Below, in pieces: positions 8,563-15,240 of a stretch of 64,000 bases of DNA; positions within the stretch are counted from its first letter, which is position 1; every line of letters begins with the position of its first letter. Below the pieces are notes generated by a model. The model made no database searches. It was not told the DNA's origin and was given only the letters and a program-made list of their open reading frames with translations. The stretch covers positions 186,001-250,000 of the forward strand of contig CAIPAH010000022.1 of the NCBI GenBank assembly GCA_903862955.1, written 5' to 3'. The position numbers were made by a program, and so were the translations under genes. The stretch comes from an uncultured Opitutia bacterium (GTDB taxonomy: Bacteria > Verrucomicrobiota > Verrucomicrobiia > Opitutales > Opitutaceae).

Positions 8563-11352
8563 CTAAATTCTCCGCTGCCGCCAGCGCAGGAGTGACAGCG
8601 CGACGAGTCCTGCCGGCAGCCAGCCGCCCATCGCGCCCGCTCCGTTGCCGTTTGGTCCGCCGCTCGTGCTGCTGCTTGTGGTCGTGCCGCCGGTCGTGGT
8701 GGTGCCGCCACCGGTGGAACCGCTGGTCGTGCCTTGGCGAAGCGTAAGCGTCGTCACCACCCCGGCCGGTGTCACCTTGCGGATTGAGTCATTGCCCGTG
8801 TCCGCCACCCAGAGATTGCCGCTGGCATCGATGGTCAGCGACCTTGGTTGGTTGAACATCGCGCCATAACCCGTGCCGTCTTGGTTGCCGCCGATGCCCG
8901 CCAGGCCGGCCAATGTGCTCACCACACCTGCCGGCGTGATCCGGCGGATCGTGCTGTTGCCGGTGTCCGCCACGTAGAGGTTGCCGGTCGCGTCGAGCAC
9001 CAGGCCATCCGGCTGATTGAACAGCGCCTGGCTCCCGGCGCCGTCATCGGAACCGCTCACGCCGGGCAGGCCGGCCAGCACCGTGACGACGCCGGCGGGG
9101 CTGATCTTGCGGATGACATTGTTGGACAGGTCTGCGACGTAGACATTCCCGGCCGCGTCAACCGCGAGGCCGGCGGGGTGATTGAAGAGCGCGGCGGTGC
9201 CCGTGCCGTCAGCGAAGCCCGGCACGCCGGCCGAGCCCGCGAGCGTGCTCACGACGCCGGCGGGCGTGATCTTGCGGATGGTCTGGCCCATGGCATCCGC
9301 CACGTAAAGGTTGCCGGCCACGTCGAGGGCGACGCCCACCGGAGATGAGAAGGTTGCTGCCGTTCCGGTGCCATCGGCATTGCCGCGCGCGGTGGCGGAC
9401 CCGGCAAACGTCGTGACGCTGCCGTCGGTCGCGACGCGCCGGATCATGGCGTTGGCGGTGTCGGCGACATAGATGACACCGCTGCTGGCCGCGGCGAGGC
9501 CGCCCGGCTGGTTGAACAACGCAGCCGCACCCGTGCCATTGCCGGCGCCGGCGGAGCCGCTGGTGCCGGCGAGGAGCGTGACGTCGCCCGCGGTGGTGAT
9601 CTTCTGGACGGTGTCGCCCGAGGAGTCGGTCACGAAGAGGCCGTCCGGCCCGACGAAACCAATGCCCGACGGATACGTGAAGAACGTGTTAGTGGTCACG
9701 GGCGGAGGTGGAGGCGGGGCTGTGCCCACGATGAGCACGGCGCCGGCGGAAGTGACGTTCCCCGCACTGTTGCTCACGAGCACGGTGTAAGTGCCGGCGT
9801 CACTCGTCACCGCGGAGGCAATGGTGTAGGCAGCGGTGGTGGCGCCGGGGATCGCCACCCCGGTCTTGCTCCACTGGTAAGTGGGCGCCGGATTGCCGCT
9901 GGCCGCCACCGTGAAGGTGACCGAGTTGCCCGCGGTGACCGTCTGGCTGGTAGGCTGCGTCGAGATCGTGGGCGCGGTGTTCGGCGGCGGCGGCGCCTGC
10001 ACGGTCAGCGTGGTGCCATTCGAGGTGACGCTGCCGGCGACGTTGGTGGCGACGGCGGTGTAGGTGCCCGCATCGCCGGCGGCGGCGGAAGCGATCGTGA
10101 AAGTGGCGCCGGTCGCGCCGCTGAGCGCCGCGCCGTTCTTGTTCCACTGGTACGTCGGCGCGGGCGTGCCGCTGGCGGCCACGACAAACGTGACCGAGCC
10201 GCCGGTGGTGACGGTTTGGCCGACGGGCTGCGTCGTGATGACCGGCGCGACGTTGGTCGGCGGCGCTGCCTGCACGGTCAACGTGGCGCCGGCCGAGGTG
10301 GCCGAGCCCACGGAGTTGGTGGCCACCACCGTGTAGGTGCCGGCATCGCCGGCGGCCGTGGACGCAATCGTGTAGGAGGAACCGGTCGCGCCGCTGATGG
10401 CCACGCCGCCCTTGTTCCACTGATAGGTCGGGGCCGGATTGCCACTCGCCGAGGCCGTGAAGGTGGCTGGATTGCCGGCGGTGACCGTCTGGCTGGACGG
10501 CTGCGTGGTGAATGACGGCGCGGTGTTGGGCGGAGGCGCCGCCTGCACGGTGAGCGTGGCGCCGTTCGAGGTGGCGGTGCCAGCGACGTTGGTGGCGACG
10601 GCGGTGTAGGTGCCCGCGTCACCCGCCGCGGCGGCGGCGATCGTGTAGGTGGAACTCGTCGCGCCCGCGATGGCCGCGCCGTCCTTGTTCCATTGGAACG
10701 TCGGCGTGGGATTGCCGCTGGCGGCCACCGTGAAGGTCACCGCGCTGCCGGCGGTGACCGTCTGGCTGGACGGCTGCGTGGTGATGCTGGGCGCGGTGTT
10801 GGTCACCCCGCTGCTGATGGTGAACGTCACCGTGATCTTCGCGCTGTTTCCGCCTGTGCCATTCAGACTGTCCCAGGCCGTGACCGTGCAGGCCGTCGTG
10901 CCGGCGGTCGTGGGCGTGCCGGAGATGGTCATTTTGTAGGGTGCGACAACGTTCACCGGGTTGCCGCCGGCGACGCTGAGCCCAGCCGGAAGCGGCGTGG
11001 TACTCTTGACGCTCCACGACTTCGGGTTGCCCGGAGCGCCGCTGACGGAGATGCCGATGCTGAGGGCCGTGCCGGTTGTGCCGGTGACCGTGAAGGTGGA
11101 GTTCGCCGCGCCGCTGGTCGGCGTGGCGGGGCTGACGTTGAAAACCGTCGCGCCGGCCACGGAGTTGTAGGCGCCCATGGCGGCGGCCACCGCCGTGGAA
11201 CGCAGGATCATCGGCGCGCGCTCCACAAACACGTCACCGATTTGTTCCAGTGCCCGGAGCACCGGGGCCGGAGTGCGTTGCAGCAACAGGACGAGCAATC
11301 CCGTGGGAAATTGGAGCCAGCGCAAACGAATGGAGATAGCGGATGGATTCAT
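8563..11352 (-). CDS. Large secreted/surface protein: four Ig-like repeats, several NHL-type repeats, C-terminal hydrophobic sorting-like tail
   Basis: Four repeats of about 90 aa ([54 protein letters not shown]...), then repeats of [27 protein letters not shown], ending [24 protein letters not shown]. Confidence 0.85.
9700..10803 (-). repeat. Four tandem Ig-like coding repeats (about 270 bp each)
   Basis: Repeated protein units with matching DNA periodicity inside the 8563-11352 CDS. Confidence 0.8.
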
Positions 11353-11403: not shown

Positions 11404-11625
11404 TCAGTTGCAGCCGCAGCCACTGCCGCCGACGCCGCGGCCGCCGGTGGCCGCTTCGCAGGAGAAGTAGATGTGCTCGAACATGGCGTTGTGCAGCGGA
11501 TCACGGTCCGGACGCATGGTGGCGTCGGCCAGCGTGGCGCGTTCCCAGGGCTGCACCGTGGTGCAACCCGCCAAAAGCGTGAACAGCGCGGCCAGGGCCA
11601 GCGCGAAGCGAAGACGGGTCTTCAT
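11404..11625 (-). CDS. DUF4266-like small lipoprotein
   Basis: MKTRLRFALALAALFTLLAGCTTVQPWERATLADATMRPDRDPLHNAMFEHIYFSCEAATGGRGVGGSGCGCN: lipobox LAGC, QPWERxxLA, terminal GCGCN. Confidence 0.85.
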   Translation of the reverse strand: MKTRLRFALALAALFTLLAGCTTVQPWERATLADATMRPDRDPLHNAMFEHIYFSCEAATGGRGVGGSGCGCN

Positions 11626-12122
11626 GATTTTTCCTCCAGCAGGCGGTTGATTTCATCGCGCAGGGCCTTGACGGTGGACTCGCCGTGGTAGCCGCTGTGC
11701 ACCGATCGCACGATTCCGTGGCGGTCGAGGAGATAGGAGGTCGGCATCGCGGGCACGCGGACCTCCGAAATGAGCTTCTGCTTGCCATCGCGCACGGTCG
11801 GGAAGGCCGGCTTGAATCGCTCGATGAACTGCTCATACGGCGCGGCGGTCTGGTCGACGCTCACGGCAAGCAGGACGAATCCGCGCGGGGCGAACTCGCG
11901 CTGGATTTCCGTGTAGGCGGGAAAAGAGGCTTTGCAGGGCGCGCACCACGTCGCCCAGAAATCGATGAGGACGACGTGTCCGGCCGTGTCGGGCAGCGTG
12001 CCTTCGAGTCCGTGGCCAGTCAGCGCCGGGAAGGGCTGGCCGGATTTGACCTGACCCGACGCCGAGCAGGCCAGGGCAAGGCCAAGGACGAGGGCGGGAA
12101 TGAATTTATTGGGGAACGACAT
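11622..12122 (-). CDS. TlpA-family thiol-disulfide oxidoreductase (thioredoxin-like)
   Basis: VVLIDFWATWCAPCKASFPAYTEIQREF: thioredoxin WCxxC; stop overlaps the DUF4266 start (ATGA). Confidence 0.9.
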   Translation of the reverse strand: MSFPNKFIPALVLGLALACSASGQVKSGQPFPALTGHGLEGTLPDTAGHVVLIDFWATWCAPCKASFPAYTEIQREFAPRGFVLLAVSVDQTAAPYEQFIERFKPAFPTVRDGKQKLISEVRVPAMPTSYLLDRHGIVRSVHSGYHGESTVKALRDEINRLLEEKS

Positions 12123-13074
12123 AATTGAAAAATCCGCGGGTTTGGTGCCGCGCACCGTCGGCGACAATGCAGGCCTCGGCGCCCATGGAGGCTTGGACGA
12201 AAGTGATGCCCTCGGCCGGCGGCAGGATGAAAGCCGTGGTGGACAGCACGCCGGCCTGCAGGCAGGTCGGGGCGATCACCGTGACCTGGCGGGCGCCGTG
12301 CGCGACCGGGCGGCCCGTGCGCGGGTCGATGATGTGGCCGTAGCGAATGCCATCGATCGTGAAGCCACGACGGTAGTCTCCCGACGAGGCGACGCCACGA
12401 TCCTTGATCGCCATGCTTCCCCAGCAGGCGGCGCCCGGTCGCGCCGGATCCTCCAAGCCGATATGCCAGCCGGGCTTGCCCGGCGCCGTGCCCAACGCGC
12501 GCAGGTCGTGGCCAAAATCCACCAACACGCGGGTGAGACCGTGCTCGCGGGCGATCTCCGCCACCATGTCGACCGCGTATTCCTTGCCCCACCCGCCCAG
12601 ATCCAGAGCCATGCCTGGTTCCGGAAGCCGCACCCGACCGCGCTCGCGCTGCACGCGCGGCCAGCCCACGAGGCGGCGCGCCACCGCGATTTCCGCGGCC
12701 GACGGAATGCGCGGCACCGGCGCACGGTAGTCCCACAGCCGTATCAGTGGGAGCGCAGTGATGTCGAGCAGCCCCTGCGTGAGGGAATAAATCGAACCGC
12801 TCAGGTCGAGCATGCGCTCCATTTCCTCGTCGATCGCCACCCAGCCGTGGCCGGCCGCGGCGTTGATGCGGCTGATCAGGCTCCCGGGCCGGAAGCGCGA
12901 GTATTTCGCCTCAAAGGTCGCAACCCACGCCTGGGCCGCCTGCTCGAACGCCCGCCCAATCCGCGCGTCCTCGCTGGCATATTGCACCAGGCACTCCGTG
13001 CCGAGTGCCGCCCACCGCAGTGCATGCAGGGGCGCGGCGGGCGCGGGAGGCAGGAGCGTGGTGGAATCAGCCAT
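12106..13074 (-). CDS. apbE: FAD:protein FMN transferase (ApbE family)
   Basis: LGTECLVQYASED ... FEAKYSRFRPGSLISRINAAAG ... ALDLGGWGKEYAVDMVAEIAREHGLTRVLVDFGHDLRALG ... GHIIDPRTGRPV; 3' end overlaps the TlpA start by 17 nt. Confidence 0.88.
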   Translation of the reverse strand: MADSTTLLPPAPAAPLHALRWAALGTECLVQYASEDARIGRAFEQAAQAWVATFEAKYSRFRPGSLISRINAAAGHGWVAIDEEMERMLDLSGSIYSLTQGLLDITALPLIRLWDYRAPVPRIPSAAEIAVARRLVGWPRVQRERGRVRLPEPGMALDLGGWGKEYAVDMVAEIAREHGLTRVLVDFGHDLRALGTAPGKPGWHIGLEDPARPGAACWGSMAIKDRGVASSGDYRRGFTIDGIRYGHIIDPRTGRPVAHGARQVTVIAPTCLQAGVLSTTAFILPPAEGITFVQASMGAEACIVADGARHQTRGFFNYVVPQ

Positions 13075-13084
13075 GGCCGGCGAA

Positions 13085-14272
13085 TCAGTGGATGAGCTTG
13101 AAACCGAAGGTGAAGACGTTCGCCGCGAAGAAAGCGCTCTGGGGCGTGACATGGTCGAGGCCACGCGAGCCGTAGCGGTCATACGCGGCATTCACTTCCA
13201 GCCAACGCCGGACCTGCCACACGACCTTCAAGCCTGCGTCCACGGTCCGCATATACGAGAGGCGGTAGTCCGACGAATAATACGGCGCCCGCCCCGTGCC
13301 CGTTTCGCCGAGCGGCCCGTAGCTGGTGACGATGCCGGCCTTGTCCAGGTCGACGTAATAGAAATCCGCCGCGGTCTGCCGGTAGTAGCGAACGAAAGGC
13401 TGGAGGGTCACATGTTCGCCGAGCTTCTGCAGCCAGAGCACGGAGAACGTGTTGCTGTTGATGCCAAAACTATCGTGGTAGTAGCGATAGGACGCCTCCA
13501 CGGCGCCATGCCAGGCGTCAACGTTGCGGTTCAGCCCGAGGAACAGGCTCCCCTTGTTCCGTTCCATCGGCCGGTTCTCGGGCACCGTGTAGTAAGTGCC
13601 CGGGTCGAGATCCAGCAGCGTGGTGGAGACGATCTTGTAGGGATCACTCATGTAGCCGCGCGCCTGCCCGAGGGAGACATTTGCGGTCACGCTGGTGTTG
13701 GCGTCGATCAGTTGGTTGACGCCCACGAGGAAGTCGTTGCTCCGCTTGGGGCGCGTGACCGTCCAGCCGAGCTTCTCCTCGTTGATCCGGTCGTCAGCGC
13801 GGCCGTAGCCCAGCAGCAGGCTCGTGTTCTTCTGGTTGAAATCGATGACGCCGTTTAGCGACCAGCCGTTGGAAAAATAATCGCTCTCGCGGCTGGTGGC
13901 GAAGCCGAGGCTCAGGCTCACACGCTCGAACTGTTGAGTGAGGTCGGCGTTCCATGCCTTGCGCCGGTCATGCATCGTGGCCAGCGGGACCTGCCCGCCC
14001 GGCACCGGCGCCTTCTCGCCGGTCGGCGTGGCGCCGGCGATCGAATCGATCAAGCCCATCACCTTCACGTGCAGGGCCGTCGTCGGATCCGAATCAAGCT
14101 GAAGATAATTCGTGTCCACACGGATCCGGTTGTCCGACTCCTGGAACGACTGGTCCTTCCAAGCCAGCGTATCCTCGGCGCGCGCGGCGCGCGGCGCGAC
14201 CAACATCAGGACGAGGCCGAGCATCAATCCGGGGGCGCATTCCGGCCGGGGAAAAGTGAAGCGGGGGGACAT
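13085..14272 (-). CDS. DUF3570-like protein, predicted exported beta-rich (possibly outer-membrane barrel)
   Basis: Signal-peptide-like N-terminus then alternating amphipathic strands (NRIRVDTNYLQLDSDPTTALHVKVMGLIDSIAGATPTG...); operon context with ApbE/TlpA/DUF4266. Confidence 0.75.
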   Translation of the reverse strand: MSPRFTFPRPECAPGLMLGLVLMLVAPRAARAEDTLAWKDQSFQESDNRIRVDTNYLQLDSDPTTALHVKVMGLIDSIAGATPTGEKAPVPGGQVPLATMHDRRKAWNADLTQQFERVSLSLGFATSRESDYFSNGWSLNGVIDFNQKNTSLLLGYGRADDRINEEKLGWTVTRPKRSNDFLVGVNQLIDANTSVTANVSLGQARGYMSDPYKIVSTTLLDLDPGTYYTVPENRPMERNKGSLFLGLNRNVDAWHGAVEASYRYYHDSFGINSNTFSVLWLQKLGEHVTLQPFVRYYRQTAADFYYVDLDKAGIVTSYGPLGETGTGRAPYYSSDYRLSYMRTVDAGLKVVWQVRRWLEVNAAYDRYGSRGLDHVTPQSAFFAANVFTFGFKLIH

Positions 14273-14580
14273 CGGGGGCGAGGCTCGTGCTCAGACGTTC
14301 GACCGCAAGATTAGTTCGCGCGTTTTCCGTCAAAACCGTTTGAAAATTATTCGGCGTGTCTGCGGCGCGCAAACGGGCGCGGTTTTGTGACACTTTTTTT
14401 GCAAGAATCGCCGCGGCCGCGCTGTGAGAACGAAGGTGACCTGCTGACTCGAGTCGACACGACCCACCCGCCCCACAGCACTGGAGTTCTCTCCGTGCCC
14501 GGATTTCGACGTTGTTATGCGCGCCGAGTCCGCCCACGAAGCACAGTCCGCAACCTGCCCGCTTCAACGCCCACTCCCCC

Positions 14581-15240
14581 ATGCTTTCTCTTCGTTCCAT
14601 TATTTCCCGGCGCTTGCTCCCGGTCGCCGGCCTGTTCCTCGCCGCCTGCGCCTCCACGAAGCTCACTGACAGCTGGAAGGCGCCCGAGGCGGGCACCATC
14701 CACTTCACCAAGATCCTCGTGATGGCCGTGGCACCCGTCGACTCACTGCGTCATCCCGCCGAGGACGCGATGCGGGCCCAGATCAAGACCGTCCCGGTCG
14801 TCACCAGCTATGAGCTGCTGCCCAAGGCCGAGGATGGCTCCGATCCCGTCAAGCTGGCCGCGGCGATCAAGGCCGCGGGCGTGGACGGCATCATCGTGAT
14901 GCGGATGGTGTCATCGGACTCCGAGGTGAGCTACACGACCGGCGGCATGATGCCGTCGTATTACACGTCGTTTAACAGCTACTACGGTTACAACTTCCGG
15001 GGCTACCATAACTACTACAACAACCGCTACGCGGCCCAGGCGGCGTTCTACTACGACCCGCCGAAAATGTATGTCGACCGGATCATCGGCATCGAGACGA
15101 ACATCTACAATGCCCGCGACCAGGCGCTCATCTGGACCGGGATCACGAAGTCCACGAACCCGAAGGGGGTCGACCAGCTCATCGCCGAGGTGGCCGGCGT
15201 CGTGCGCAGCAAGCTCCGCAGCCAGGGGCTGATCAAGTAA
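14581..15240 (+). CDS. Lipoprotein, DUF4136-like
   Basis: MLSLRSIISRRLLPVAGLFLAACASTKLTDSWKAPEAGTIHFTKILVMAVAP...: lipobox and secreted domain. Confidence 0.6.
   Translation: MLSLRSIISRRLLPVAGLFLAACASTKLTDSWKAPEAGTIHFTKILVMAVAPVDSLRHPAEDAMRAQIKTVPVVTSYELLPKAEDGSDPVKLAAAIKAAGVDGIIVMRMVSSDSEVSYTTGGMMPSYYTSFNSYYGYNFRGYHNYYNNRYAAQAAFYYDPPKMYVDRIIGIETNIYNARDQALIWTGITKSTNPKGVDQLIAEVAGVVRSKLRSQGLIK

Follow-up and report, generated by a model that had tools for sequence, protein, structure and literature searches.

A five-gene cluster for a putative covalent-flavin redox system at the outer membrane of an uncultured Opitutia bacterium

A DUF3570 cluster with a fifth gene

The window analyzed in this work, a stretch of 64,000 nucleotides (nt) from contig CAIPAH010000022.1 of an uncultured Opitutia bacterium (Opitutaceae, Verrucomicrobiota), carries a compact cluster of five genes on its minus strand, which appear to build an outer-membrane pore with a covalent flavin that probably serves electron transfer near the cell surface. 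The first gene (13085–14272) encodes a DUF3570 protein of 395 amino acids (aa; PF12094, E 1e-63). It is followed by ApbE, a flavin adenine dinucleotide (FAD):protein flavin mononucleotide (FMN) transferase (12106–13074, likely start ATG 13074; PF02424, E 9e-74), a TlpA/ResA-like thioredoxin-fold protein with an export signal (11622–12122; AhpC-TSA/Redoxin match), and a DUF4266 lipoprotein of 73 aa (11404–11625; PF14086, E 3e-20). The original prediction had described these four genes as tightly coupled, and the open reading frames (ORFs) and Pfam matches agree: 10 nt lie between the DUF3570 stop and the probable ApbE start (ATG 13074), ApbE shares 17 nt with TlpA if the latter starts at the ATG at 12122, and TlpA and DUF4266 overlap in ATGA. 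The unit was placed at 11404–14272, which is correct for the four genes but too narrow, as a fifth gene encoding 929 aa (8563–11352), located 51 nt downstream of DUF4266 on the same strand, belongs to it.

The exact order DUF3570-ApbE-TlpA-DUF4266 was found at 75 of the 107 loci with distinct DUF4266 sequences. Of 387 genomes surveyed in the phylum, 41 encode DUF3570 and as many encode DUF4266, the two families occurring together in 40. Because of this shared order and co-occurrence, the association of the four families is far beyond chance. The best matches of the DUF4266 protein among named genomes are mostly from Opitutaceae and other Verrucomicrobiota. Both the redox theme of the locus and its conservation in other phyla, which had been put forward earlier, are supported.

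Clusters of this kind were described as DsbD/DUF3570 flavinylation clusters by Meheust et al. in 2021 (PMC8238504), and the window operon is a member of that cluster type with another class of ApbE and an added gene. It shares with the published clusters the four families together, DUF3570 as the ApbE substrate (demonstrated there, predicted in the window), a C-x-C tail on DUF4266, and a thioredoxin-like partner. No DsbD was found at the cluster, the sole DsbD_TM match of the genome being on another contig, and DsbD is likewise absent from 316 published clusters. A difference lies in the substrate, which has two [S/T]GA[S/T] sites in the published case and one in the window. A text search of the main text of PMC8238504 found no mention of a barrel, a signal-peptide-less ApbE in the clusters, or the fifth gene, and in the literature searched, which included few subscription papers, DUF3570 and DUF4266 were not mentioned outside PMC8238504. 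While the core gene set has been known since 2021, the unusual ApbE class and the fifth partner gene look new.

DUF3570 as predicted flavin acceptor and outer-membrane barrel

The locus had been said to encode no known FMN-binding domain that could receive the flavin from ApbE. An acceptor is known, however, since work of 2021 identified DUF3570 as a target of ApbE: the protein of Chlorobium luteolum is flavinylated by its ApbE, and flavinylation was lost only after Ser replacement at both [S/T]GA[S/T] sites (PMC8238504). The suggestion that a DUF3570 residue may be the acceptor fared better. Judging from conservation and the homologous Chlorobium motif, FMN is very likely attached to Thr82 of the window protein (14027–14029), which lies in its single site, IDSIAGAT. 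In an alignment of 100 DUF3570 homologues, all 100 have Ser or Thr in the acceptor column, and position -6 is occupied by Asp (86) or Asn (14), giving the consensus [DN]x[IV][SATV][GS][AS][TS]. Relative to the seven-residue ApbE motif in a review (PMC12052999), the window site keeps the -6 Asp and the final Thr and has Ala instead of Ser/Thr at -3. The acceptor had also been considered to be possibly encoded elsewhere, against which stands the result of Pfam searches for three other known acceptor families, FMN_bind, DUF2271, and NQR2/RnfD, none of which gave a match in the source genome (3.6 Mb, 31 contigs); an acceptor of an unrecognized family would escape such searches.

The DUF3570 protein has a signal peptide, and its AlphaFold2 model (predicted local distance difference test score, pLDDT, 91.4; predicted template modeling score, pTM, 0.88) is a barrel with an even number of strands, 16, in line with the exported, beta-rich protein originally proposed. 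The model matches outer-membrane barrels with Z of 15–22, among them those of OmpG, OmpC, CymA, and BamA with Z of 16–22, and Foldseek likewise returns outer-membrane proteins. The C-terminal residue is Phe or Trp in 78 of 100 DUF3570s, the window protein itself ending in His. Judging from the model, DUF3570 is almost certainly a 16-strand outer-membrane barrel, which fits the recovery of the C. luteolum protein in the pellet and the need to denature it (PMC8238504).

The position of Thr82 in this barrel can be predicted from the lengths of the connections between strands. The turns after even strands have 2–5 residues in the window protein with a standard deviation of no more than 0.5 across homologues, and long variable segments are found solely after odd strands, the one adjoining Thr82 varying from 11 to 160 aa. 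Outer-membrane barrels usually have both chain ends in the periplasm. Given this arrangement and the pattern of turns and loops, the acceptor would lie where strand 3 ends on the outside of the cell. Polar residues occupy the odd positions 37, 39, 41, and 45 of that strand, and the acceptor has an odd number as well (51 in the mature protein); by strand parity, the side chain of Thr82 should be on the side of the polar residues and face the barrel lumen.

Several relatives carry additional motifs in the same region. The divergent subfamily of loci L070–L074 has a second [S/T]GAS nearby, between barrel strands 3 and 4. The DUF3570s of L033, L037, L038, L041, L047, and L053 have an extra (K/R)AGAT, a possible second flavin site, within some 100 inserted residues rich in Pro and Ser that separate the same two strands. 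At L052:7701-9109, the DUF3570 frame is broken into three ORFs, and one match contains an in-frame TAG.

The fifth protein as a candidate second substrate

The fifth protein is composed of a conserved N-terminal module, four immunoglobulin (Ig)-like domains, and NHL repeats, and it ends in a tail, GG...RWRQRR, that resembles GlyGly-CTERM. The module occurs at 74 of the 107 loci and in 24 of the 387 genomes, every one of which is DUF3570-positive. Within the family, it is present in 18/18 DUF3570 positives and 0/18 negatives, including splits inside three genera; Fisher tests on the module ignored ancestry and were run with 19 family negatives versus the 18 listed. Clustering of the neighbors of the 107 loci also returned the Ig-type fifth gene as the recurrent neighbor. 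The fifth gene thus belongs to the operon unit in the lineage of the window. Most of the recurrent neighbor ORFs lay antisense to the core genes and were disregarded; the family that recurs downstream on the same strand is that of the fifth gene.

The module ends in a heptad, [HDNQ][STA]x[ASTV][GA]A[TS], in which positions -6 to 0 are under constraint and beyond which, starting at +1, the sequence varies freely. Its last residue, Thr69 in the window protein (NSVAGAT, 11146–11148), is Ser/Thr in 97/97 modules and is a candidate second ApbE site; the chance that the fifth protein is a second ApbE substrate is, in our estimate from this motif, slightly better than even. Six more module copies outside the main cluster retain the motif. 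At L263:3487-7793, DUF3570, ApbE, and the fifth gene form a triplet without TlpA and DUF4266, and a different contig of the genome concerned, G372, bears DUF3570-TlpA-DUF4266 lacking ApbE. The motifs of DUF3570 and the fifth protein are identical at position -3 in 40/70 cases versus 23 expected, a figure that takes no account of common ancestry and was not used as evidence.

A serious alternative, which we rate at somewhat below an even chance, is that GAT is a signal-peptidase site alone and that the fifth protein, though secreted as a partner, carries no flavin. The hydrophobic stretch before AGA/T makes up a textbook A-x-A site. However, the residues at -6 (H/D/N/Q), -5 (S/T/A), -2 (G), and 0 (T/S, 97/97) are constrained beyond what the peptidase needs, and the constraint ends at +1. 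The heptad also resembles D-x-x-[S/T]-G-A-[S/T] (PMC12052999), though its -6 residue is mostly His and not Asp. The one in-class member without the module (genome G231, locus L068) has in the same slot a 1540-aa exported protein of Ig/cadherin type with an N-terminal CITCH heme motif (L068:6165-10784), a single case that hints at a redox role of the slot. At L079, L136, and L063, two or three GAT-module proteins stand in tandem beside the cluster.

TlpA and the cysteine tail of DUF4266

TlpA has the active site WCAPC (11934–11948), and W..CxxC is found in 122/124 TlpA matches of the loci. The DUF4266 lipoprotein has its lipobox cysteine at Cys21 (11563–11565), kept in 43/43, and ends in a GCGCN tail whose C-G-C comprises Cys70 and Cys72 (11410–11418). 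An alignment had been suggested as a check of whether this tail and the T/S before Gly-Gly in EAATGG are invariant; the tail came out as GCGC[NYF] in 109/110, and the T/S was found in 69/110 only. The C-x-C tail was previously noted as possibly redox-active (PMC8238504), and a putative action of TlpA on it is plausible. Two deviations were seen among the cysteines. The window DUF4266 has one more cysteine in its mature part, Cys56 (FSCEA, 11458–11460), where 41/43 relatives have Arg. At L067:3030-3263, a single DUF4266 ends in GGGCN instead of GCGCN, either by an assembly error or by a real loss of the cysteine.

The same two proteins could serve maturation or metal handling. TlpA and DUF4266 would then form a thiol/disulfide or metal pair for the folding of the barrel or for a metal such as iron or copper, and FMN would reduce a metal or small molecule in the pore for uptake. 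TlpA/ResA-like proteins do act in maturation elsewhere, and C-x-C tails can bind metals. Among the published DUF3570 clusters, 25 include the iron transporter VIT1 (PMC8238504). In contrast, no transporter or metal protein was a recurrent neighbor among the 107 loci, where the Ig-type fifth gene recurs instead, and some loci lack TlpA but keep DUF3570 and DUF4266 together. We consider this alternative unlikely.

An ApbE class with paired Gly and Glu replacements

The assignment of the second gene to the flavin transferase family is confirmed by a PF02424 score of 248.7 bits against a curated cut-off of 25.6. Its Ser-His-Asp triad is nevertheless incomplete. Ser231 (12382–12384) and His247 (12334–12336) are retained, as in 90/90 ApbEs of the clusters, and Gly275 (12250–12252) replaces the catalytic, Mg-binding Asp that is Asp285 in Vibrio cholerae ApbE, Asp301 in Listeria FmnB, and Asp280 in Escherichia coli. 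The spacing of Ser231, His247, and Gly275 (16 and 28) is that of Ser241-His257-Asp285 in V. cholerae (PMC12052999) and Ser257-His273-Asp301 in Listeria (PMC8906456). In E. coli, Asp280 binds metal 1 through its side chain and backbone and Glu169 binds metal 2 (PMC4767422); by alignment mapping, the equivalent of Glu169 in the window is Lys164. The next residue, Glu165 (KEYAVD, 12580–12582), replaces the Gly of the usual KGYAxD. Gly275 and Glu165 occur together in the same 86/90 cluster ApbEs and in 0/50 control ApbEs from DUF3570-negative genomes. From this exact co-variation, we infer that Glu165 may assume the role of the lost Asp.

The Gly/Glu ApbEs form a monophyletic clade (100 of 100, support 0.999) in a tree built with the diagnostic columns masked. 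Among additional ApbEs of DUF3570-positive genomes, 19/20 do not have the Gly/Glu pair, and the lone exception adjoins DUF3570. A hydropathy rule (not SignalP) found no N-terminal hydrophobic stretch in 83/86 Gly/Glu ApbEs, including that of the window, and a hydrophobic N-terminus in all 4 Asp-type cluster ApbEs. The ApbE of L267, from a Hymenobacter plasmid, combines a signal peptide with the canonical Asp. The taxonomic reach of the Gly/Glu class was sampled within the Planctomycetes–Verrucomicrobia–Chlamydiae (PVC) group, and the planctomycete loci L109, L146, and L153 carry it too.

If the Gly275 ApbE were degenerate or repurposed, with no FMN transfer in vivo, DUF3570 would be a plain porin here. 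The loss of the triad and metal-binding Asp in 86/90 cluster ApbEs points in this direction, as do the Ala replacements of metal-binding residues in Listeria FmnB, the equivalent Asp included, which cut activity greatly or fully (PMC8906456). However, the clade is conserved and monophyletic and keeps the triad Ser and His, the DUF3570 acceptor is invariably Ser/Thr, and ApbE is present in all 42 genomes with DUF3570 or DUF4266 versus 56/80 negatives. Moreover, ten genomes have a DUF3570 cluster without apbE, and all ten carry a Gly/Glu ApbE elsewhere, several beside a second DUF3570. A degenerate enzyme is therefore improbable. The source genome of the window encodes a single ApbE; G369, a congeneric genome that lacks both DUF3570 and DUF4266, encodes none. 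The Thr of EAATGG in DUF4266, previously proposed as the acceptor, does form a Thr-Gly-Gly but was rejected as having practically no chance, since the position is not conserved (S39, T30, A22, V6, N6, F5, M1, and H1 in 110 homologues, 41 of which thus have neither Ser nor Thr) and a G-A-[S/T] motif is absent.

Proposed mechanism

We propose that the five genes encode a covalent-flavin outer-membrane redox system, an explanation to which, as a whole, we give an even chance. The presumably cytosolic ApbE would transfer FMN from FAD to Thr82 of the unfolded DUF3570 precursor, and would probably also load Thr69 of the fifth protein. The absence of a signal peptide from ApbE suggests that flavinylation precedes export, and a periplasmic ApbE would be unable to reach the acceptor of a folded barrel, so flavinylation would precede assembly. 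We regard flavinylation before export as somewhat more probable than not. DUF3570 would then be exported and fold as the 16-strand barrel, its FMN turned towards the lumen close to where strand 3 ends on the outside. DUF4266, as an outer-membrane lipoprotein, would reach for the barrel from the periplasm with its GCGCN tail, which is thin and rich in Gly. TlpA, whose supplier is probably a DsbD-like protein, would swap thiol/disulfide equivalents with this tail, which in turn would exchange electrons with the barrel FMN, and the surface-type Ig/NHL fifth protein would be the outer partner. The electron relay through the CxC tail is tentative, and a net outward flow of electrons is slightly more doubtful. 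The most specific version is a heme-free conduit in which a barrel with covalent FMN in its lumen is fed by a lipoprotein with a dithiol tail and delivers electrons to a flavinylated surface Ig protein. Both flavoproteins would receive FMN ahead of export, from a cytosolic ApbE in which a nearby Glu has replaced the catalytic Asp. This version is unlikely to be right in every part.

Several points weigh against this scheme. We know of no precedent for Sec export of a chain bearing FMN, and ApbE could equally well be exported itself by an unrecognized route. TlpA is missing from some loci (L068, L140, and L263), so the locus does not strictly need it. The structure prediction of DUF4266 has a pLDDT of 61.5 and no confident fold. 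Strand parity is the sole basis for turning Thr82 towards the lumen, and GAT in the fifth protein could also be read as a signal-peptidase I site (A-x-A followed by T). Finally, the activity of the Gly275 class is a prediction, to be set against the Ala results in FmnB.

Relation to known systems and minor observations

To our knowledge, outer-membrane electron conduits are all heme-based. If FMN is located in the barrel lumen, the DUF3570 family would be the flavin counterpart of these conduits, and the near-constant co-occurrence of DUF3570 and DUF4266 would be explained. By description, the system would work most like Cyc2, a fused cytochrome-porin (PMC8406198), with which it would share a 16-strand outer-membrane barrel and one covalent redox cofactor on the same chain. 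In Cyc2, however, the cofactor is a heme in an N-terminal domain, whereas in DUF3570 it is an FMN predicted on a strand. The translations of the five window proteins contain no c-type heme motif C-x-x-C-H, and the system is therefore not a member of the Cyc2 family. The porin-cytochrome conduits (MtrCAB/Pcc) similarly combine a barrel with co-encoded periplasmic and surface partners, but use multiheme cytochromes in place of the predicted flavin and the dithiols of the window locus. An ApbE without signal peptide, a cytosolic one, is also known from Klebsiella (PMC12052999), where the substrate is a soluble intracellular fumarate reductase and not an exported protein as in the window. If ApbE is cytosolic and its substrates are exported, it may be asked whether the Sec channel lets flavinylated chains through, and the Asp-less clade offers a direct test of ApbE catalysis without the metal-binding Asp. 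The fifth gene, for its part, provides a concrete candidate for an outer partner or second substrate of this previously published system.

A few observations concern the surroundings of the cluster. With the window DUF3570 as the query, no match was found on plasmids, and DUF3570 of the L074 type matched two Hymenobacter plasmids. A divergent plus-strand ORF adjoining the operon (14512–15240) encodes a lipoprotein-like protein of 242 aa with no Pfam match at E 0.1. At L050, L060, L062, L086, L091, L107, L112, L126, and L155, an OmpR-type response regulator (MRILxIEDE) is encoded right after DUF4266, which suggests two-component control of some copies of the cluster.

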